Positions 22,597-28,037 of a DNA stretch of 35,908 nt are shown piece after piece. The notes beneath the pieces were generated by a model, which saw only the letters and a program-made list of their open reading frames with translations, was not told the DNA's origin and made no database searches. How positions within the stretch are numbered: the first letter of the stretch is position 1; the number at the start of each line of letters is the position of its first letter. The translations under genes and the position numbers were made by a program. This DNA comes from Terriglobia bacterium (GTDB taxonomy: Bacteria; Acidobacteriota; Terriglobia; Bryobacterales; Bryobacteraceae), in the NCBI GenBank assembly GCA_021324185.1, contig JAJPJN010000136.1, forward strand, positions 1 through 35,908. The letters are read 5' to 3'.

Positions 22597-23250
22597 TTGC
22601 TTCTCATCTTCGACCTTGACGGCACGCTCATCGATTCGGCAGAAGATCTGGCCATCTCGATGAATGCAACGCGCGCGCATTTCGGGCTTCCGGCGCTGGC
22701 GCCATCGATTATCTATTCATTCGTCGGCAATGGCGCCGCTGTTCTTGTGAAGAAAGCGATGGGCCCCGGCGCCACCCAGGAAATTTTGGACGAAGCTCTC
22801 GCGTTCTTTCTGCGCTTCTATCGCGTCCACGCGCTCGAACATACTCGCTTTTATCCGGGTGTCCGCGAAGCGGTTGAAAAACTCGCGGCAGACGGCCACA
22901 CGCTGGCCGTGTTGACCAATAAGCCCGTCCGCATCAGCCGGGACATGATCGCCGCGCTGGGGGCGGCGCCGCTCTTTTATCGCATCTATGGCGGGGATAG
23001 TTTTGCGGCCAAGAAGCCCGATCCCATCGGCGTCACAACTCTGCTTTCCGAAACAAATACAGCCATTGCTGAGGCCGTGCTGATCGGCGATAGCGGCGTC
23101 GATATCCAGACTGCCCGAAACGCCGGCGTGCAGAGTGTCGGGGTGGCCTGGGGATTCCAGCCCGAGGCCTTTGAGGTGCATCCACCCGACAAGATCGTGT
23201 ACCGGCCCGACGAATTAATCGGCATCATCAAAGCACGGGTTCTGCAGTAG
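22597..23250 (+). CDS. gph: Phosphoglycolate phosphatase-like HAD hydrolase
   Basis: 217 aa, HAD superfamily. The nucleophile motif LIFDLDGTLIDS is at residues 3-14; motif II is LAVLTNKP (about 105), motif III lysine KKPDP (about 139) and motif IV VLIGDSGVDIQTARNAG (about 162). The alpha-helical cap (FVGNGAAVLVKKAMGP) is of the Gph type. The start is TTG, placing the nucleophile motif directly after the initiator as usual for the family. It likely hydrolyses 2-phosphoglycolate, although close relatives act on other small phosphoesters. Its end overlaps the tail of the acetyltransferase gene on the other strand by 23 bases. Confidence 0.9.
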   Translation: MLLIFDLDGTLIDSAEDLAISMNATRAHFGLPALAPSIIYSFVGNGAAVLVKKAMGPGATQEILDEALAFFLRFYRVHALEHTRFYPGVREAVEKLAADGHTLAVLTNKPVRISRDMIAALGAAPLFYRIYGGDSFAAKKPDPIGVTTLLSETNTAIAEAVLIGDSGVDIQTARNAGVQSVGVAWGFQPEAFEVHPPDKIVYRPDELIGIIKARVLQ

Positions 23251-23932
23251 AGTTCAAGCTGGAGAGCGAAACGCGCTGCCTGCCTGTCTTATCGAAGTTT
23301 GCTGGTGCGAGCCATTGTTCGAAATTCCGTTTGCGCTCGGGCCATTCGCGATCAATAATCGAGAACCACGCTGTATCGCGGTTCCGGCCCTTGACGATCA
23401 TGTGCTGCCGGAAAATGCCTTCGAACTGAAAGCCGAAGCGCAACGCCGCGCGGCGCGACCTCTGGTTCTGCGCATCACACTTCCATTCGTAGCGGCGGTA
23501 GTGCAGATCGTCAAAAACGTATCGCGCCATCAGATACATCGCCTCCGTTGCTGCGGCTGTGCGCTGAAGCGACGGTCCATAGACGATGTGTCCCACTTCG
23601 ATGCAGCGGTGTGCCGGCTCTATGCGCAGATAGGAGGCATAGCCCTTAGCGTTGCCGTCGCTATGATCCACGATGGCAAAGAAGAGAGGATCTTCGCTGG
23701 CGGCCTTGTTCTCTAAATGCGCTTCGAACGCCCGAAAGTCGGCGAATGGTCCGGCTCCCATATAGGTCCAAAGCCCGTCGTTTTCCGGACCGCACGTGTG
23801 CTGGTAAAGCGACTGCGCATGCACCTCCCGGCGCAGCGGCGTAATGGTGACAAATCGGCCGCGAAGTGTTAGGCGCTCGGGACGAGTTCCGGGTAGCAAT
23901 GCCTCACCGGCTCCGGATGCTTTATACTGCAT
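23228..23932 (-). CDS. GNAT family N-acetyltransferase (RimJ/RimL-like)
   Basis: 234 aa. It opens with a short lead, then LRGRFVTITPLRREVHAQSLY, the usual beginning of the Acetyltransf_3 (RimJ/RimL-type) group. The acetyl-CoA site region is FFAIVDHSDGNAKGYASYLRI ... EVGHIVYGPSLQRTAAATEAMYLMARYVFDDL, and YRRYEWKCDAQNQRSRRAALRFGF followed by EGIFRQHMIVKGRNRDTAWFSI are hallmark C-terminal segments. The target could be an amino group on a small molecule or protein N-terminus. ATG 23932 is chosen; longer in-frame extension would run through the opposite-strand selenoprotein gene. Only nine bases separate the two divergent start codons. Confidence 0.88.
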   Translation of the reverse strand: MQYKASGAGEALLPGTRPERLTLRGRFVTITPLRREVHAQSLYQHTCGPENDGLWTYMGAGPFADFRAFEAHLENKAASEDPLFFAIVDHSDGNAKGYASYLRIEPAHRCIEVGHIVYGPSLQRTAAATEAMYLMARYVFDDLHYRRYEWKCDAQNQRSRRAALRFGFQFEGIFRQHMIVKGRNRDTAWFSIIDREWPERKRNFEQWLAPANFDKTGRQRVSLSSLNSTAEPVL

Positions 23933-23941
23933 AGTTCGTAG

Positions 23942-24643
23942 ATGAAAGTCAGAAAGTTCCTCGTAATTGTAGCCCTTGCGATTGCCGTGCTGTACTGTTG
24001 CGCCTTTGCGGGGTTCGATTACGCGATGCACCAGCCGCCGGAAACCTTCGGCAACGTGATGAAGCATACCGGGCCCGCGCCCTTTCTGATCTTTCCTTTT
24101 GAAAGCATGTGGAAGAGCGCGCGAGCGGGACATCTTGCTCCCGGCGACATGGCGCCGGATTTCACGCTGCCGCTGCTGAATCATTCAGGCAGCGTGACGC
24201 TATCTTCGTTTCGCGGCGCAAAGCCGGTTGTGCTCATCTTTGGCAGTTACACTTGACCGCCATTTCGCCGGGAGGTTCCCGCGCTCAACAATCTGTACCA
24301 GCAATACAAAGACAGCGTCGCTTTCTACGTGGTCTACATCGATGAGGCGCATCCGTCTGACATCTGGCAGATGGAGAGCAATGTGCATGAGGGCGTACTC
24401 TTTCGCAATCCGACCACCGCGATTGAGCGCGAACAGGTAGCCGGCGCATGCGTGCGCAATCTGCATATTGCCATGCCTGCTCTGATTGATTCCATCAACA
24501 ATCAGGTGGAACGGCAGTATACCGGCTGGCCCGACCGTTTGTATCTGATCGGTACCGATGGCCGCGTGCGCTATAAGAGCGAGCCGGGGCCGTTTGGGTT
24601 TGAGCCGTCGAAACTGTCCGCGGCGCTCTCAGCCGGAGCATAG
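23942..24643 (+). CDS. Deiodinase-like thioredoxin-fold selenoprotein (in-frame TGA = Sec105)
   Basis: 233 aa when TGA at 24254-24256 is read as selenocysteine; the frame continues without another stop to TAG 24641. An N-terminal membrane anchor (residues about 5-24) is followed by a redoxin start (GDMAPDFTLPLL, then LSSFRGAKPVVLIFGSYT) and the active site T-U105-PPFRREVP. Beyond it are YIDEAHPSDIW (deiodinases have YIEEAHASDGW, with conserved Glu and His) and DRLYLIGTDGRVRYKSEPGP, matching the deiodinase C-terminus. Family knowledge predicts reduction or reductive dehalogenation chemistry by the selenol; the substrate is unknown. No strong Shine-Dalgarno is visible; TATACT (23923-23928) may be a -10 box. 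The alternative is a Cys-to-stop pseudogene, but the intact downstream frame and SECIS-like hairpin argue against it. Confidence 0.88.
24266..24283 (+). promoter_or_regulatory. Putative bacterial SECIS element
   Basis: Directly after the in-frame TGA the RNA can fold as CG (24266-24267), a bulged C (24268), CGGG (24269-24272), loop AGGTT, CCCG (24278-24281), CG (24282-24283). The first loop G is 18 bases after the TGA, inside the spacing known for bacterial SECIS hairpins. The loop's AGGU and a bulge in the 5' arm resemble the E. coli fdhF element bound by SelB. It lies within coding sequence, as expected in bacteria. Confidence 0.75.
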
Positions 24644-24665
24644 AGCAAAGAGCTAAATTAGATAT

Positions 24666-24854
24666 ATGGCTCACCCCAACAATCTTCGATTTGGCGAAGC
24701 CGACTGGGCAATAGACGAAGAGGATGACGCGACGCTCGCGGGAATTGAAGACGCCGTGAAAGCGGCTGATGAAGACAAGGTCAAGCCTCAAGAAGAAGTC
24801 CGCAAGCTCCTCCCGCAGTGGATTTCAAAATTTTCTACACCGAACCCGCGCTAA
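24666..24854 (+). CDS. Small antitoxin-like protein, 62 aa
   Basis: Acidic N-terminus followed by a helical stretch, ATLAGIEDAVKAADEDKVK, then PQEEVRKLLPQWISKFS. The pattern (aLaaIeeGi.aadeGr..p.eEVr..l..Wi.K) resembles short antitoxin-like proteins that accompany RelE/ParE-type toxins. No toxin gene follows: the next 180 bases hold no matching ORF. It begins 22 bases after the selenoprotein stop and may be co-transcribed with it. ATG with AT-rich upstream sequence and no clear ribosome site. Function unproven; an orphan antitoxin or residual half of a lost module is the best guess. Confidence 0.6.
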   Translation: MAHPNNLRFGEADWAIDEEDDATLAGIEDAVKAADEDKVKPQEEVRKLLPQWISKFSTPNPR

Positions 24855-24878
24855 CCACCGCTTCGTGAGTTCTTCGCG

Positions 24879-24937
24879 ATGTGATTATAGCCCCAGTTAA
24901 ATGCACCCGCATGTGATTCTCCTCACCTATTAAATGC
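24879..24937 (+). repeat. Pair of imperfect direct repeats upstream of the YfdX-like gene
   Basis: ATGTGATT, 10 bases, TTAAATGC (24879-24904) is repeated as ATGTGATT, 11 bases, TTAAATGC (24911-24937), giving a period of 32-33 bases, about three helical turns. The spacing places both copies on the same DNA face, which would suit paired binding by a regulator. They lie about 95-155 bases before the start codon. Confidence 0.55.
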
Positions 24938-24985
24938 GCCTGAGTTATCCGAACTAACAAAGTTATTAGGTCCCCGTCCAAGCCG

Positions 24986-25011
24986 GTAGCCCGTACATTC
25001 GGGCCAGCTAC
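24986..25011 (+). other. Leader hairpin before the YfdX-like gene
   Basis: GTAG and CCCG pair with CGGG and CTAC around a TACATT loop, with a four-base bulge (CCAG) on the 3' side. It ends eight bases before the ribosome site AGGAG (25019-25023). No T-run follows, so it is not a terminator; it may be a 5' UTR stability or regulatory element. Confidence 0.35.
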
Positions 25012-25033
25012 AGTCCCTAGGAGAAAACACAGC

Positions 25034-25906
25034 ATGAAAGTTCGTTACTTATCCGCAATGTGTGTGGTTTGTCAACTCACACTGATGACATCCTTGCTAA
25101 GTGCTGCACCGCCGCAGACAAACTCAAGCAGTAGCAGCACGGCAGCTTCCAGTGCAAACAGTCAAAGCGCCAAGCACATGACCCAACTTGCAACTAAGCT
25201 CCTTCAGCAGGTAACCGACGCCAAGCAGGCGATCTCAAATAATAACAAGCAAGCCGCGCTGAAGGATGTGAATCAGGCTCTTGCAGACCGCAACCAGCTC
25301 GCCTCCGTGGCCAAGGCCAACGGGTACAACTTAGTCGTACCGTTATACACCGAGTTCGACGAAAGCTCCACCCTGGCTCCCCTCATCTCTGCACGCAAAG
25401 GGAACCAGAATTCAAAGCCAAAGAACGCGCTGAACAGTTACACTCCGATTACGGTAGATCAGGTTTCCGGCGAATACACATTTATCGGGCTGGATCTCGA
25501 TAAAGCGAAGACGCGTTTGGAGGCAGCGAAGACGGCACTCAACAATGGAAACAACCAGGCGGCCTCGGATTCACTCGACGCAATCGGAACTGATCTGGTG
25601 ATGGAGACCGATCAAATGAGCCTGCCGCTGCTCGCCGCCCGCGAAAACCTCAACATCGCGGAATCTGCGGTTAAGAACGGGCATAACAAGGAAGCCGCTG
25701 CAGCCCTCAAAGAAGCATCGACGGATCTTAACAAGTATGTGGACGCGAACGCGAACAGTCAACATGCCGAAGATGCGAAAAACCTGAGTAAGACAATTGA
25801 TGCTTACTCGAACACACTCAGCCAGTCTCATGCGGGCTCAGCCGCTAAGATCGACGGATGGTGGCACCAGGTCGATAATTGGTTCAACCACCCGTCTAAG
25901 TCCTGA
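25034..25906 (+). CDS. Exported YfdX-like helical protein
   Basis: 290 aa with a signal peptide (MKVRYLSAMCVVCQLTLMTS, cleavage probably after SAA near residue 25) and a Ser/Thr/Ala-rich linker. The mature part is mostly helical, with duplicated patterns such as DAKQAISNNNKQAALKDVNQAL and ENLNIAESAVKNGHNKEAAA, plus a VPLYTEFDESSTLAP segment. These fit the YfdX family (periplasmic or cytoplasmic proteins tied to acid and multidrug response in enterics), although the match is by pattern only. AGGAG is ten bases upstream of the ATG. Asn/Gln/Lys-rich composition differs from neighbours. It is preceded by direct repeats and a hairpin, suggesting regulated expression. Confidence 0.65.
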   Translation: MKVRYLSAMCVVCQLTLMTSLLSAAPPQTNSSSSSTAASSANSQSAKHMTQLATKLLQQVTDAKQAISNNNKQAALKDVNQALADRNQLASVAKANGYNLVVPLYTEFDESSTLAPLISARKGNQNSKPKNALNSYTPITVDQVSGEYTFIGLDLDKAKTRLEAAKTALNNGNNQAASDSLDAIGTDLVMETDQMSLPLLAARENLNIAESAVKNGHNKEAAAALKEASTDLNKYVDANANSQHAEDAKNLSKTIDAYSNTLSQSHAGSAAKIDGWWHQVDNWFNHPSKS

Positions 25907-25949: not shown

Positions 25950-28037
25950 TTACTCTTCTTCTTCCACATGCATGTGCGCCTTGGCCGCAGCGATAATCTT
26001 TTCAGCCTGCGGCTGCGGCACATAGTCGTAATGATCAAATTCCATGTGGAAGGAGGCGCGGCCTTGGGTCTTGGAGATGAGATCGTTCTGATACGTCAGC
26101 ATCTCCGCCATGGGCACCTGGGCGCGGATGGTTTGCATGTTGCCTTTCAGGTCCATGCCCGTGATGCGGCCCCGGCGGCCGTTGAAATCGCTCATCAAAT
26201 CGCCGGCAAATTCTGCGGGTGTTTCCACTTCCACATTCATGATGGGCTCGAGCAACGCTGGTTTGGCCTGCTGCATGGCTGCCCGGAATGCTTTCCGGCC
26301 CGCCAGCTTGAACGCCATTTCGGACGAATCCACGTCATGGTAGGAGCCGTCGTACAGCGTCACGCGAAAATCGGTCACCGGGTAGCCGGCAATGAAGCCC
26401 TGCTCGGCTGCTTCGAGAATTCCTTTTTCCACCGCTGGAATGAATTGCCTGGGAATTGCGCCGCCGAAAATGTCGTTTACGAACTGAAACTTCTCGCCGC
26501 GCGCAAGCGGTTCCAGCTTGATCCAGCAGTCGCCGAACTGGCCGTGGCCGCCGGTCTGCTTTTTGTGGCGGCCTTGCACACTGGCTGTGCCGCGCACCGT
26601 CTCGCGATACGGAATCTTCGGCGCCTTCAGTTCCACTTCCACGCCATACCGTCGCTTCAGGCGGCTGACTACAATTTCGACATGCTGCTGGCCGTTGCCG
26701 GCCAAAAGAAATTCCTTCGTTTGCGGATCGCGGTAGAAACGTAGCGACCGGTCTTCTTCCAGAATCTTTGAAAGCGCCGTGCTGAGGCGGTCCTCATCAT
26801 TTCGCGTCTTGGCGGAGATCGCGTAGGCAATGGACGGCTCCGGCAGCTCAATGCCGCGAATCACAACACAATTCGTCTTTTCGCAGAGAGTATCCCCAGT
26901 CAATGTCTCCTTCAGCTTCGCAACCACGCCGATGTCGCCGGCGCGCAGTTCGGTGATGGGCTGCATCTGCTTTCCGAACGGGGTTGCGATATGCGCCAGG
27001 CGCTCGCTCGCGTTCGAGCGCATATTCGTCAGATGCGCATCGTCCTTGATGGTCCCGGACATCACCTTGAAATAGGAAACACGCCCCGCAAACGGGTCGG
27101 CGGCTGTCTTGAAAACGAAGATGCTCGGCGAGTCTTTCGGATCAATCTTCTTCGTCGTTTCCTGGCCGTTTTGCGTTGCCGCAACCGGCGCGCGCTCGAG
27201 CGGCGAGGGCATAATCTCGGCGACAAAATTCAAGAGCGCGTCGGAACCAACGTTCTGAAGAGCCGAGCCGCACAGGATCGGAAAAATTTTGCGCTCGCGC
27301 ACCGATTGCTGTAAGCCGCTGATGATGTGCTCAACCGGCAAAGTGCCGCTCGAGAAAAACTCCTCCATCAGTTCGTCATTGCCTTCCGCAATCATCTCTA
27401 CCAGCGCTTCGTGGGCCGCATCTGCCTCGGCTTTGAGCTCGGCAGGAATCTCGCCTTCTTTGCCCTTGCCCTCGCCGGGCTTATAGGTGTAGCTGCGCAT
27501 GCGGATCAGGTCGATGACACCGCTAAAATTCTTCTCCTCGCCCAGCGGCAGAAAAACCGGCACTGCGGCCCTGCCGAAGACTTCGTGAACGTTATCGACC
27601 ACGCGCTGGAAGGAAGATCGCTCCCGGTCCAGCTTGTTGACCACCAGCGCGCATGGCAGCTTGAACTCCTCCGCGAATCCCCACACCTTCTCAGTGCTGA
27701 CTTCTACGCCCGCCACGCCATCGAGCAGCAGCAGCGCCGAATCCGCCGCCAGCATCGTGGAGCGCGCATCGTTCAGGAAAATGTTATAACCGGGCGTGTC
27801 GATGAGGTTCAGCTTCGTCTTCTGCCAGGCAAATGCGGCCAGCGCCGAGGTAATCGTGAGCTTCCGCGCAATCTCTTCTTCGTCGAAATCGGTGATCGTA
27901 TTGCCTTCGTCGACTTTGAGATGCCGGTCAGTCGCGCCTGTCGTCGCCAGCAGCGCTGATGTCAACGACGTCTTCCCGCAGTGCCCATGCCCAATTAAAG
28001 CCACGTTCCGAATGTCGGAACTATCGAAGACCCTCAT
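25950..28037 (-). CDS. Elongation factor G-like translational GTPase (EF-G paralogue)
   Basis: 695 aa with the full EF-G domain order. The G1 loop is GHGHCGKT (residues 16-23) instead of the AHIDAGKT of canonical EF-G. The switch I region holds EGNTITDFDEEEIARKLTI, G3 is DTPGYN (about 81), and G4 is NKLD. Domains II-V follow, with GHGQFGDCWIKLEP (about 490) and C-terminal EVETPAEFAGDLMSDFNGRRGRI. The divergent G1 and lone position, away from rpsL/rpsG/tuf, indicate the EF-G-like subgroup rather than the housekeeping fusA. GGAGG lies nine bases before the ATG. It probably acts on the ribosome, but translocation versus recycling or rescue cannot be told. Confidence 0.9.
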   Translation of the reverse strand: MRVFDSSDIRNVALIGHGHCGKTSLTSALLATTGATDRHLKVDEGNTITDFDEEEIARKLTITSALAAFAWQKTKLNLIDTPGYNIFLNDARSTMLAADSALLLLDGVAGVEVSTEKVWGFAEEFKLPCALVVNKLDRERSSFQRVVDNVHEVFGRAAVPVFLPLGEEKNFSGVIDLIRMRSYTYKPGEGKGKEGEIPAELKAEADAAHEALVEMIAEGNDELMEEFFSSGTLPVEHIISGLQQSVRERKIFPILCGSALQNVGSDALLNFVAEIMPSPLERAPVAATQNGQETTKKIDPKDSPSIFVFKTAADPFAGRVSYFKVMSGTIKDDAHLTNMRSNASERLAHIATPFGKQMQPITELRAGDIGVVAKLKETLTGDTLCEKTNCVVIRGIELPEPSIAYAISAKTRNDEDRLSTALSKILEEDRSLRFYRDPQTKEFLLAGNGQQHVEIVVSRLKRRYGVEVELKAPKIPYRETVRGTASVQGRHKKQTGGHGQFGDCWIKLEPLARGEKFQFVNDIFGGAIPRQFIPAVEKGILEAAEQGFIAGYPVTDFRVTLYDGSYHDVDSSEMAFKLAGRKAFRAAMQQAKPALLEPIMNVEVETPAEFAGDLMSDFNGRRGRITGMDLKGNMQTIRAQVPMAEMLTYQNDLISKTQGRASFHMEFDHYDYVPQPQAEKIIAAAKAHMHVEEEE

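Follow-up and report, generated by a model that had tools for sequence, protein, structure and literature searches.

A predicted membrane-anchored selenoprotein of the deiodinase family, with its second cysteine at residue 170, in an Acidobacteriota genome

Introduction

The locus studied here raises the question of whether a TGA codon lying within a deiodinase-like reading frame of a soil Terriglobia bacterium encodes selenocysteine (Sec), and what chemistry the product would then perform. Standard-code ORF calling breaks this gene into two. The window, i.e. the whole 35,908-nucleotide stretch of DNA that was analysed, corresponds to contig C91 in an assembly of 4.70 Mb (184 contigs, 96.85% complete).

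Deiodinase-like bacterial selenoproteins have been in print since 2005, when they were described from the Sargasso Sea (PMC1088965). Marine members were described again in the 2008 GOS survey, in a table that gives no motif (PMC2398784), and the tables of two reviews list the motif UxxC for deiodinase-like selenoproteins (PMC9312934, PMC13188914). A Dictyostelium homologue is also described (PMC2375036), and the passages of a 2006 survey that concern Acidobacteria count four selenoproteins there and do not mention a deiodinase (PMC1794560). Our literature search, which covered mostly open-access journal papers, found no treatment of deiodinase-like selenoproteins from Acidobacteriota.

Results

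A single gene interrupted by one TGA codon

The features of the locus are collected in Table 1. Translated with TGA as U, the frame is one 233-residue gene whose single TGA, residue 105, lies in the active site. Under standard-code decoding the same frame breaks up into a pair of ORFs that each reach 100 aa (23942-24253 and 24329-24640), which confirms the claim of an earlier note on this DNA that two same-frame ORFs flank one TGA at 24254-24256; its further claim that this codon occupies the catalytic position is supported, U105 falling in a deiodinase-type active-site motif. TGA is the stop codon in 8 of the 17 window ORFs looked at (a set that includes the selenoprotein gene), so the genetic code as a whole is unchanged and the recoding is local. 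Among homologues, the median pN/pS (uncorrected, ungapped) is 0.47 upstream and 0.40 downstream of the TGA, and pN equals or exceeds pS in 0 of 435 pairs. Both halves of the gene, before and after the TGA, are under purifying selection.

Table 1. Coordinates of the selenoprotein gene, its elements and its divergent neighbour in the window.
Feature	Position	Strand	Basis
GNAT acetyltransferase, divergent neighbour	23228..23932	-	Pfam; start choice inferred
Selenoprotein gene of the deiodinase family (PF00837); 233 residues + TAG stop	23942..24643	+	translation, Pfam, structure matches
N-terminal membrane-spanning anchor at residues 7-25 (mean hydropathy 2.68; net charge of +3 ahead of it)	23960..24016	+	hydropathy; predicted topology
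Active-site motif S102-Y-T104-U105-P-P-F108	24245..24265	+	homologue alignment
In-frame TGA, read as Sec105	24254..24256	+	translation, codon comparison with homologues
SECIS hairpin of bacterial type with 7 pairs and GGU (24274-24276) as its apical loop	24267..24284	+	folding, covariation, synonymous shuffles
YIDEAHPSDIW block, residues 132-142 (Tyr132, Glu135, His137, Trp142)	24335..24367	+	alignment
Cys170, candidate resolving cysteine	24449..24451	+	alignment of homologues

The TGA codon is conserved among relatives

Among 150 genomes from the same family as the window, 52 carry a homologue with one internal TGA. The count takes in one-TGA matches at E<=1.3e-46 and leaves out a weaker, split TGA-bearing match in genome G013 (8.2e-32), along with other weaker rows that contain a TGA. 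Given this count, and a family in print since 2005, the earlier description of bacterial deiodinase homologues as few does not hold. In a draw of 396 genomes from the phylum, 24 contain a homologue match at 1e-20, and a search of a plasmid collection gave no match. At the loci that were fetched, TGA occupies the residue-105 position in 30 of 30 from the family, and it is the Sec codon at all 80 named loci, which are the top 80 among 164 confirmed by a family-profile scan; the two sets overlap partly, and counts across both are of distinct sequences. The scan for the named loci used peptide patterns from and beside the active-site motif and may thereby have favoured Sec forms. The titles of 79 of the 80 name groups that we take to be Acidobacteriota, and the title of the remaining one (L085, Nevskia soli) is probably wrong. 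Records of named strains with Sec-form relatives include Occallatibacter savannae AB23 (L104) and Acidicapsa dinghuensis 4GSKX (L099).

Cysteine homologues at position 105, for which the earlier note had proposed to look, exist: a TGC or TGT codon stands at the Sec position in nine loci (L142, L151, L155, L157-L161 and L163). Four of these (L157, L159, L160 and L163) share the deiodinase domain and keep Cys170, but differ from the window protein in having Cys in place of Sec and in bearing TPR repeats within a long N-terminal region. One close homologue (L156, G009:C284) has GGA (Gly) at the Sec codon; it retains the hairpin and Cys170, selA is present in its genome, and its Gly codon is either a recent loss or a sequence error. 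Five loci (L162, L164, L165, L166 and L169), in which the motif gave no codon, are in none of these counts.

A SECIS-like hairpin follows the TGA codon

Taken alone, the hairpin of the window is ordinary (z 0.18 against dinucleotide shuffles, with 11% of synonymous shuffles as stable), and single-sequence folding was replaced by a comparative test. Numbering from the T of TGA, bases 14-20 pair with bases 24-28 and 30-31, and all 203 cells pair in 30 hairpin sequences (29 distinct). Two pairs are changed on both sides among these 30 sequences, pair 15-30 from C-G to G-C in four and pair 20-24 from A-U to C-G in one, and slid versions of the hairpin gave 0 such pairs every time. Of 500 shuffles, 0 matched the covariation score and 15 matched the number of pairs changed on both sides. 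The third codon positions at bases 18, 21 and 27 do not vary in any of the 30 sequences, and those beyond about 36 do. When 107 distinct 48-mers were each compared with 300 synonymous shuffles, the local fold was stabler than the shuffle mean (z<0) in all 107; the 5% stability tail was reached by 49 and missed by 58. GG stands at bases 21-22 in 102 of 107 distinct sequences. All these sequences are related, and the counts are therefore not independent trials. Comparison among homologues thus finds a hairpin just 3' of the UGA with a G in its apical loop, and an apical-loop G near the UGA is a feature of bacterial SECIS elements as described in the Sargasso Sea report (PMC1088965). An Rfam search of positions 23500-25100 returned no family at E<=1. 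Possible hairpins of other sequence, in a slightly shifted place, are seen in L140, L145 and L146.

The genome encodes the selenocysteine machinery

The window's genome contains selB (376.7 bits), selA (500.9 bits) and selD (364.5 bits), each over its cut-off, as well as a tRNA-Sec over its cut-off (72 bits; UCA anticodon by ARAGORN). All four components that the earlier note had named as a check are thus present, and the absence of selB and tRNA-Sec, which it took as counting against its claim, was not found. The genome holds a second gene with an in-frame TGA (L175, G000:C68:10137-10886), which is formate-dehydrogenase-like with the motif QARI-U-HSSTVPSLG; a strong 8-pair hairpin follows its TGA, and it is a probable second selenoprotein. 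It scores below the TIGR01591 cut-off.

Across the 150 family genomes, selA is over its cut-off in 48 of the 52 that bear the TGA gene versus 76 of the 98 others (Fisher p 0.024), a co-occurrence that carries little weight, given that almost all members of the family have selA. In 11 genomes there is no selA match at all, and the TGA gene is missing from each of them. Four TGA-bearing genomes have no selA over cut-off: in G030, G084 and G142 a tRNA-Sec was found by ARAGORN, and in G096 the two over-cut-off tRNA-Sec covariance matches are tRNA-Leu and tRNA-Ser. Since selB is over its cut-off in G096 (339.4 bits), a gap in that assembly is likely.

The protein belongs to the deiodinase family

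The top Pfam match is T4_deiodinase, PF00837 (E 2.2e-26, 93.1 bits versus a curated cut-off of 27 bits), and this comparison, another that had been proposed, supports the deiodinase-like identity. AhpC-TSA (51.6 bits) and Redoxin (45.8 bits) are also over their own cut-offs but below PF00837, the reverse of the order that marks a typical peroxiredoxin. The best solved relatives in a single-sequence search are mouse Dio3 (1.3e-17; structure 4tr3) and Dio2 (5.4e-14; structure 9h48). With a 30-row profile they are found at 1.4e-25 and 1.4e-23, respectively, and the next solved structure, a thioredoxin-family protein, at 2.1e-7. The NCBIfam model NF038285 (deiodinase_rel) matches residues 68-229 (E 3.7e-58), but its score of 197.6 bits falls short of the 250-bit cut-off; the model extends further at the N-terminus than the window protein does. 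On sequence evidence, the gene is a real selenoprotein gene of the deiodinase family.

The active site resembles that of the animal deiodinases

Residue numbers and roles in the animal enzymes are those given in passages of PMC7506546, PMC9141512 and PMC11592359. In the alignment, Dio3 residues Ser167, Thr169, Sec170, Pro171 and Pro172 correspond to Ser102, Thr104, Sec105, Pro106 and Pro107, and the block formed by Tyr132, Glu135, His137 and Trp142 is the counterpart of the proton-relay and omega-loop residues Tyr197, Glu200, His202 and Trp207. Vertebrate DIO1-3 thus share with the window protein the Sec, the Ser/Thr before it, the Pro-Pro after it, the Tyr/Glu/His/Trp block and a near-C-terminal Gly-Pro turn, whereas the SECIS-like hairpin directly after the UGA and the conserved Cys170 are features of the window side. 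Before residues were counted, 25 of 144 rows that were identical in the catalytic segment were dropped. One alignment of the homologues omits L131 and L148. Thr104, Pro106, Pro107, Tyr132, Glu135 and His137 are kept in all 109 distinct Sec forms, Ser102 in 106 and Trp142 in 102.

Other positions depart, or may depart, from the animal enzymes. The proximal cysteine that DIO1 and DIO3 carry two residues before Sec (Ala in DIO2) is Tyr103 in the window protein, giving the motif GSYT-U-PPF, and Cys occupies position 103 in 3 of 109 Sec forms. Within a loop whose alignment is uncertain, the position aligned with Dio3 His219 (DIO1 His174) is Asn156 and is variable among the 109 forms (S 63, N 18, Q 10, D 7, T 4, M 2, with 5 not shown). 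By our own count on the alignment, Dio3 Arg275 falls on Pro215. The published bacterial deiodinase-like selenoproteins, as described, share the PF00837 domain, the Sec form, the bacterial SECIS and Cys homologues with the present ones; compared with the published UxxC motif, a Cys three residues after the Sec position occurs in 0 of 144 rows here, though the two may still be the same.

The exact motif GSCTUPPF is present in three members of the phylum (L140, L145 and L146). On a 60-row tree, which omits the long or partial rows L146, L147, L151 and L155 (two of them Cys forms), mouse Dio2 and Dio3 group with L140 and L145. The support of 94/81 narrowly misses what the tool sets as its mark (95 and 80), and the mouse branch has a length of 4.08 changes per site. 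The tree is only a hint of kinship between the animal enzymes and the GSCTUPPF proteins.

A second cysteine is found mostly at one of three places

In the 109 Sec forms, Cys170 occurs in 95, Cys153 in 4 and Cys103 in 3, and never two of the three together; the clades with Cys153 or Cys103, two in number, carry it instead of Cys170. Cys170 is the only other cysteine of the segment in 92 forms, and the Gly form retains it, as do 7 of the 9 forms with Cys at position 105. The remaining seven Sec forms have no Cys at these positions (six have one elsewhere, including the broken copy L148, and one has none), so a resolving cysteine at these places is not universal. The Cys-position states need four changes on the 60-row tree, and the exclusivity therefore rests on few events. 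The Sec/Cys states need at least one change, a lower bound because two Cys forms were left out of the tree. For DIO1, passages of the PMC7506546/PMC9141512/PMC11592359 set report that the proximal Cys124 was shown to bond with the catalytic residue, 126, and is needed for GSH recycling, which is a precedent for the Cys103 type of bacterial relative. We infer from these alignments that one resolving cysteine is required in most members, that its place has shifted, and that Cys170 serves in the window protein.

A predicted membrane anchor and an unconserved neighbourhood

The earlier note's description of the protein as membrane-anchored fits its hydropathy. The mean hydropathy of the N-terminal 19-mer exceeds 1.6 in 27 of 30 homologues, and the net positive charge is larger before than after it in 27 of 30, some starts being uncertain. 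An N-terminal membrane anchor is shared with the vertebrate enzymes, DIO1-3 being described as membrane-anchored (PMC9141512). The anchor layout suggests a periplasmic catalytic domain. A DsbD_TM protein over its cut-off is encoded in the window's genome and could supply reductant.

The ORF of the divergent GNAT acetyltransferase is listed at 23228-24184; if it began instead at the in-frame ATG at 23932, the start codons of the two genes would lie 9 bases apart. Comparison of the 80 named loci and the window (ORFs >=100 aa, flanks of up to 5 kb, some contigs shorter) found no conserved gene neighbourhood, the commonest unrelated neighbour family occurring at 20 loci with varying strand; the neighbours thus give no pointer to the substrate or the reductant. 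A promoter scan around the gene found 0 sites, with 0.6 expected. Elsewhere in the window are a YfdX-family protein downstream of the selenoprotein gene (25034-25906, plus strand), an elongation factor G-like protein (25950-28037, minus strand) and an AbiEii-type nucleotidyltransferase (PF08843, 15940-16704, minus strand), which its Pfam name marks as the toxin component of a type IV toxin-antitoxin system.

Discussion

We are moderately confident that the gene encodes a membrane-anchored, outward-facing selenoenzyme in which Sec105 would be resolved by Cys170. In the mechanism that we propose, SelB and Sec-tRNA would read the UGA at residue 105 owing to the downstream hairpin, which spans bases 14-31 when the T of TGA is base 1. 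A single N-terminal helix would hold the product in the inner membrane, and the thioredoxin-fold deiodinase domain would face the periplasm. Sec105, tuned by Ser102, Thr104, Tyr132, Glu135 and His137 as in the animal deiodinases, would attack an electrophilic substrate, and the oxidised Sec may then be resolved by Cys170 as an intramolecular selenenylsulfide. Re-reduction would fall to a thiol system, for which the DsbD-type membrane protein encoded in the genome is a candidate. If Sec105 and Cys170 act in this way, a peroxide is the substrate that we would tentatively name, a carbon-halogen bond is a doubtful candidate, and some other substrate is slightly more doubtful still.

The function itself admits several explanations. 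The protein could quite possibly, though we would not assert it, be a Sec-type peroxidase that is peroxiredoxin-like on the same fold. The AhpC-TSA and Redoxin matches over their cut-offs are consistent with such a function, a Sec/Cys pair fits peroxidase recycling, and the Dio2 structure paper within the PMC7506546/PMC9141512/PMC11592359 set notes a likeness to peroxiredoxins; set against this, PF00837 is the better match and the deiodinase Tyr/Glu/His block, kept in all 109 Sec forms, is absent from 2ls5 in the one non-deiodinase alignment shown. It is rather unlikely that the protein is a reductive dehalogenase for natural soil organo-iodine or organo-bromine compounds that works like the animal deiodinases. 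The core deiodinase residues kept in the Sec forms, the lead of Dio3 and Dio2 far ahead of the next, thioredoxin-like, solved proteins, and the exact GSCTUPPF motif of L140, L145 and L146, two of which (L140 and L145) group with the mouse enzymes, all speak for dehalogenation. However, the His219-aligned position is variable (in an uncertainly aligned loop), Dio3 Arg275 falls on a proline, neighbours are not conserved at the 80 named loci and the window, and the mouse branch is very long with support just under the tool's mark. In addition, the Sargasso Sea report (PMC1088965) argues for another function because thyroid hormones are not expected in bacteria.

Recoding of UGA competes with termination, and the TGA might accordingly be a regulated stop that releases a functional short N-terminal product, but this is very improbable, as constraint beyond residue 105 is about equal to that before it and the later part contains the Glu/His/Trp and Cys residues. 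That the gene is a pseudogene with a nonsense TGA, or that a Cys codon was misread as TGA in sequencing, is hardly credible: TGA is one base from TGC, TGT and TGG and the relative L156 has GGA, but TGA stands at the same codon in every one of the named and family loci, overlapping sets from many assemblies, the downstream sequence is constrained, hairpin pairs are compensated and the genome has the Sec machinery.

Returning to a Sec105/Cys170 selenoenzyme, the kind of protein has been known since 2005, and the present one is a variant whose Sec/Cys arrangement differs from those of DIO1 and DIO3. A more novel but improbable reading is that the Acidobacteriota hold a large family of membrane-anchored, Sec-dependent, cofactor-free reductive dehalogenases of soil organo-iodine and organo-bromine, in which the GSCTUPPF branch would be the closest bacterial kin of the animal deiodinases and the resolving cysteine would have moved between three places. 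The relatives keep the deiodinase site and carry the extra cysteine in different places, which makes their chemistry testable. As the window and the named strains offer Sec-form relatives, most with one further cysteine, the function of these proteins, their origin and their resolving step can be put to the test.
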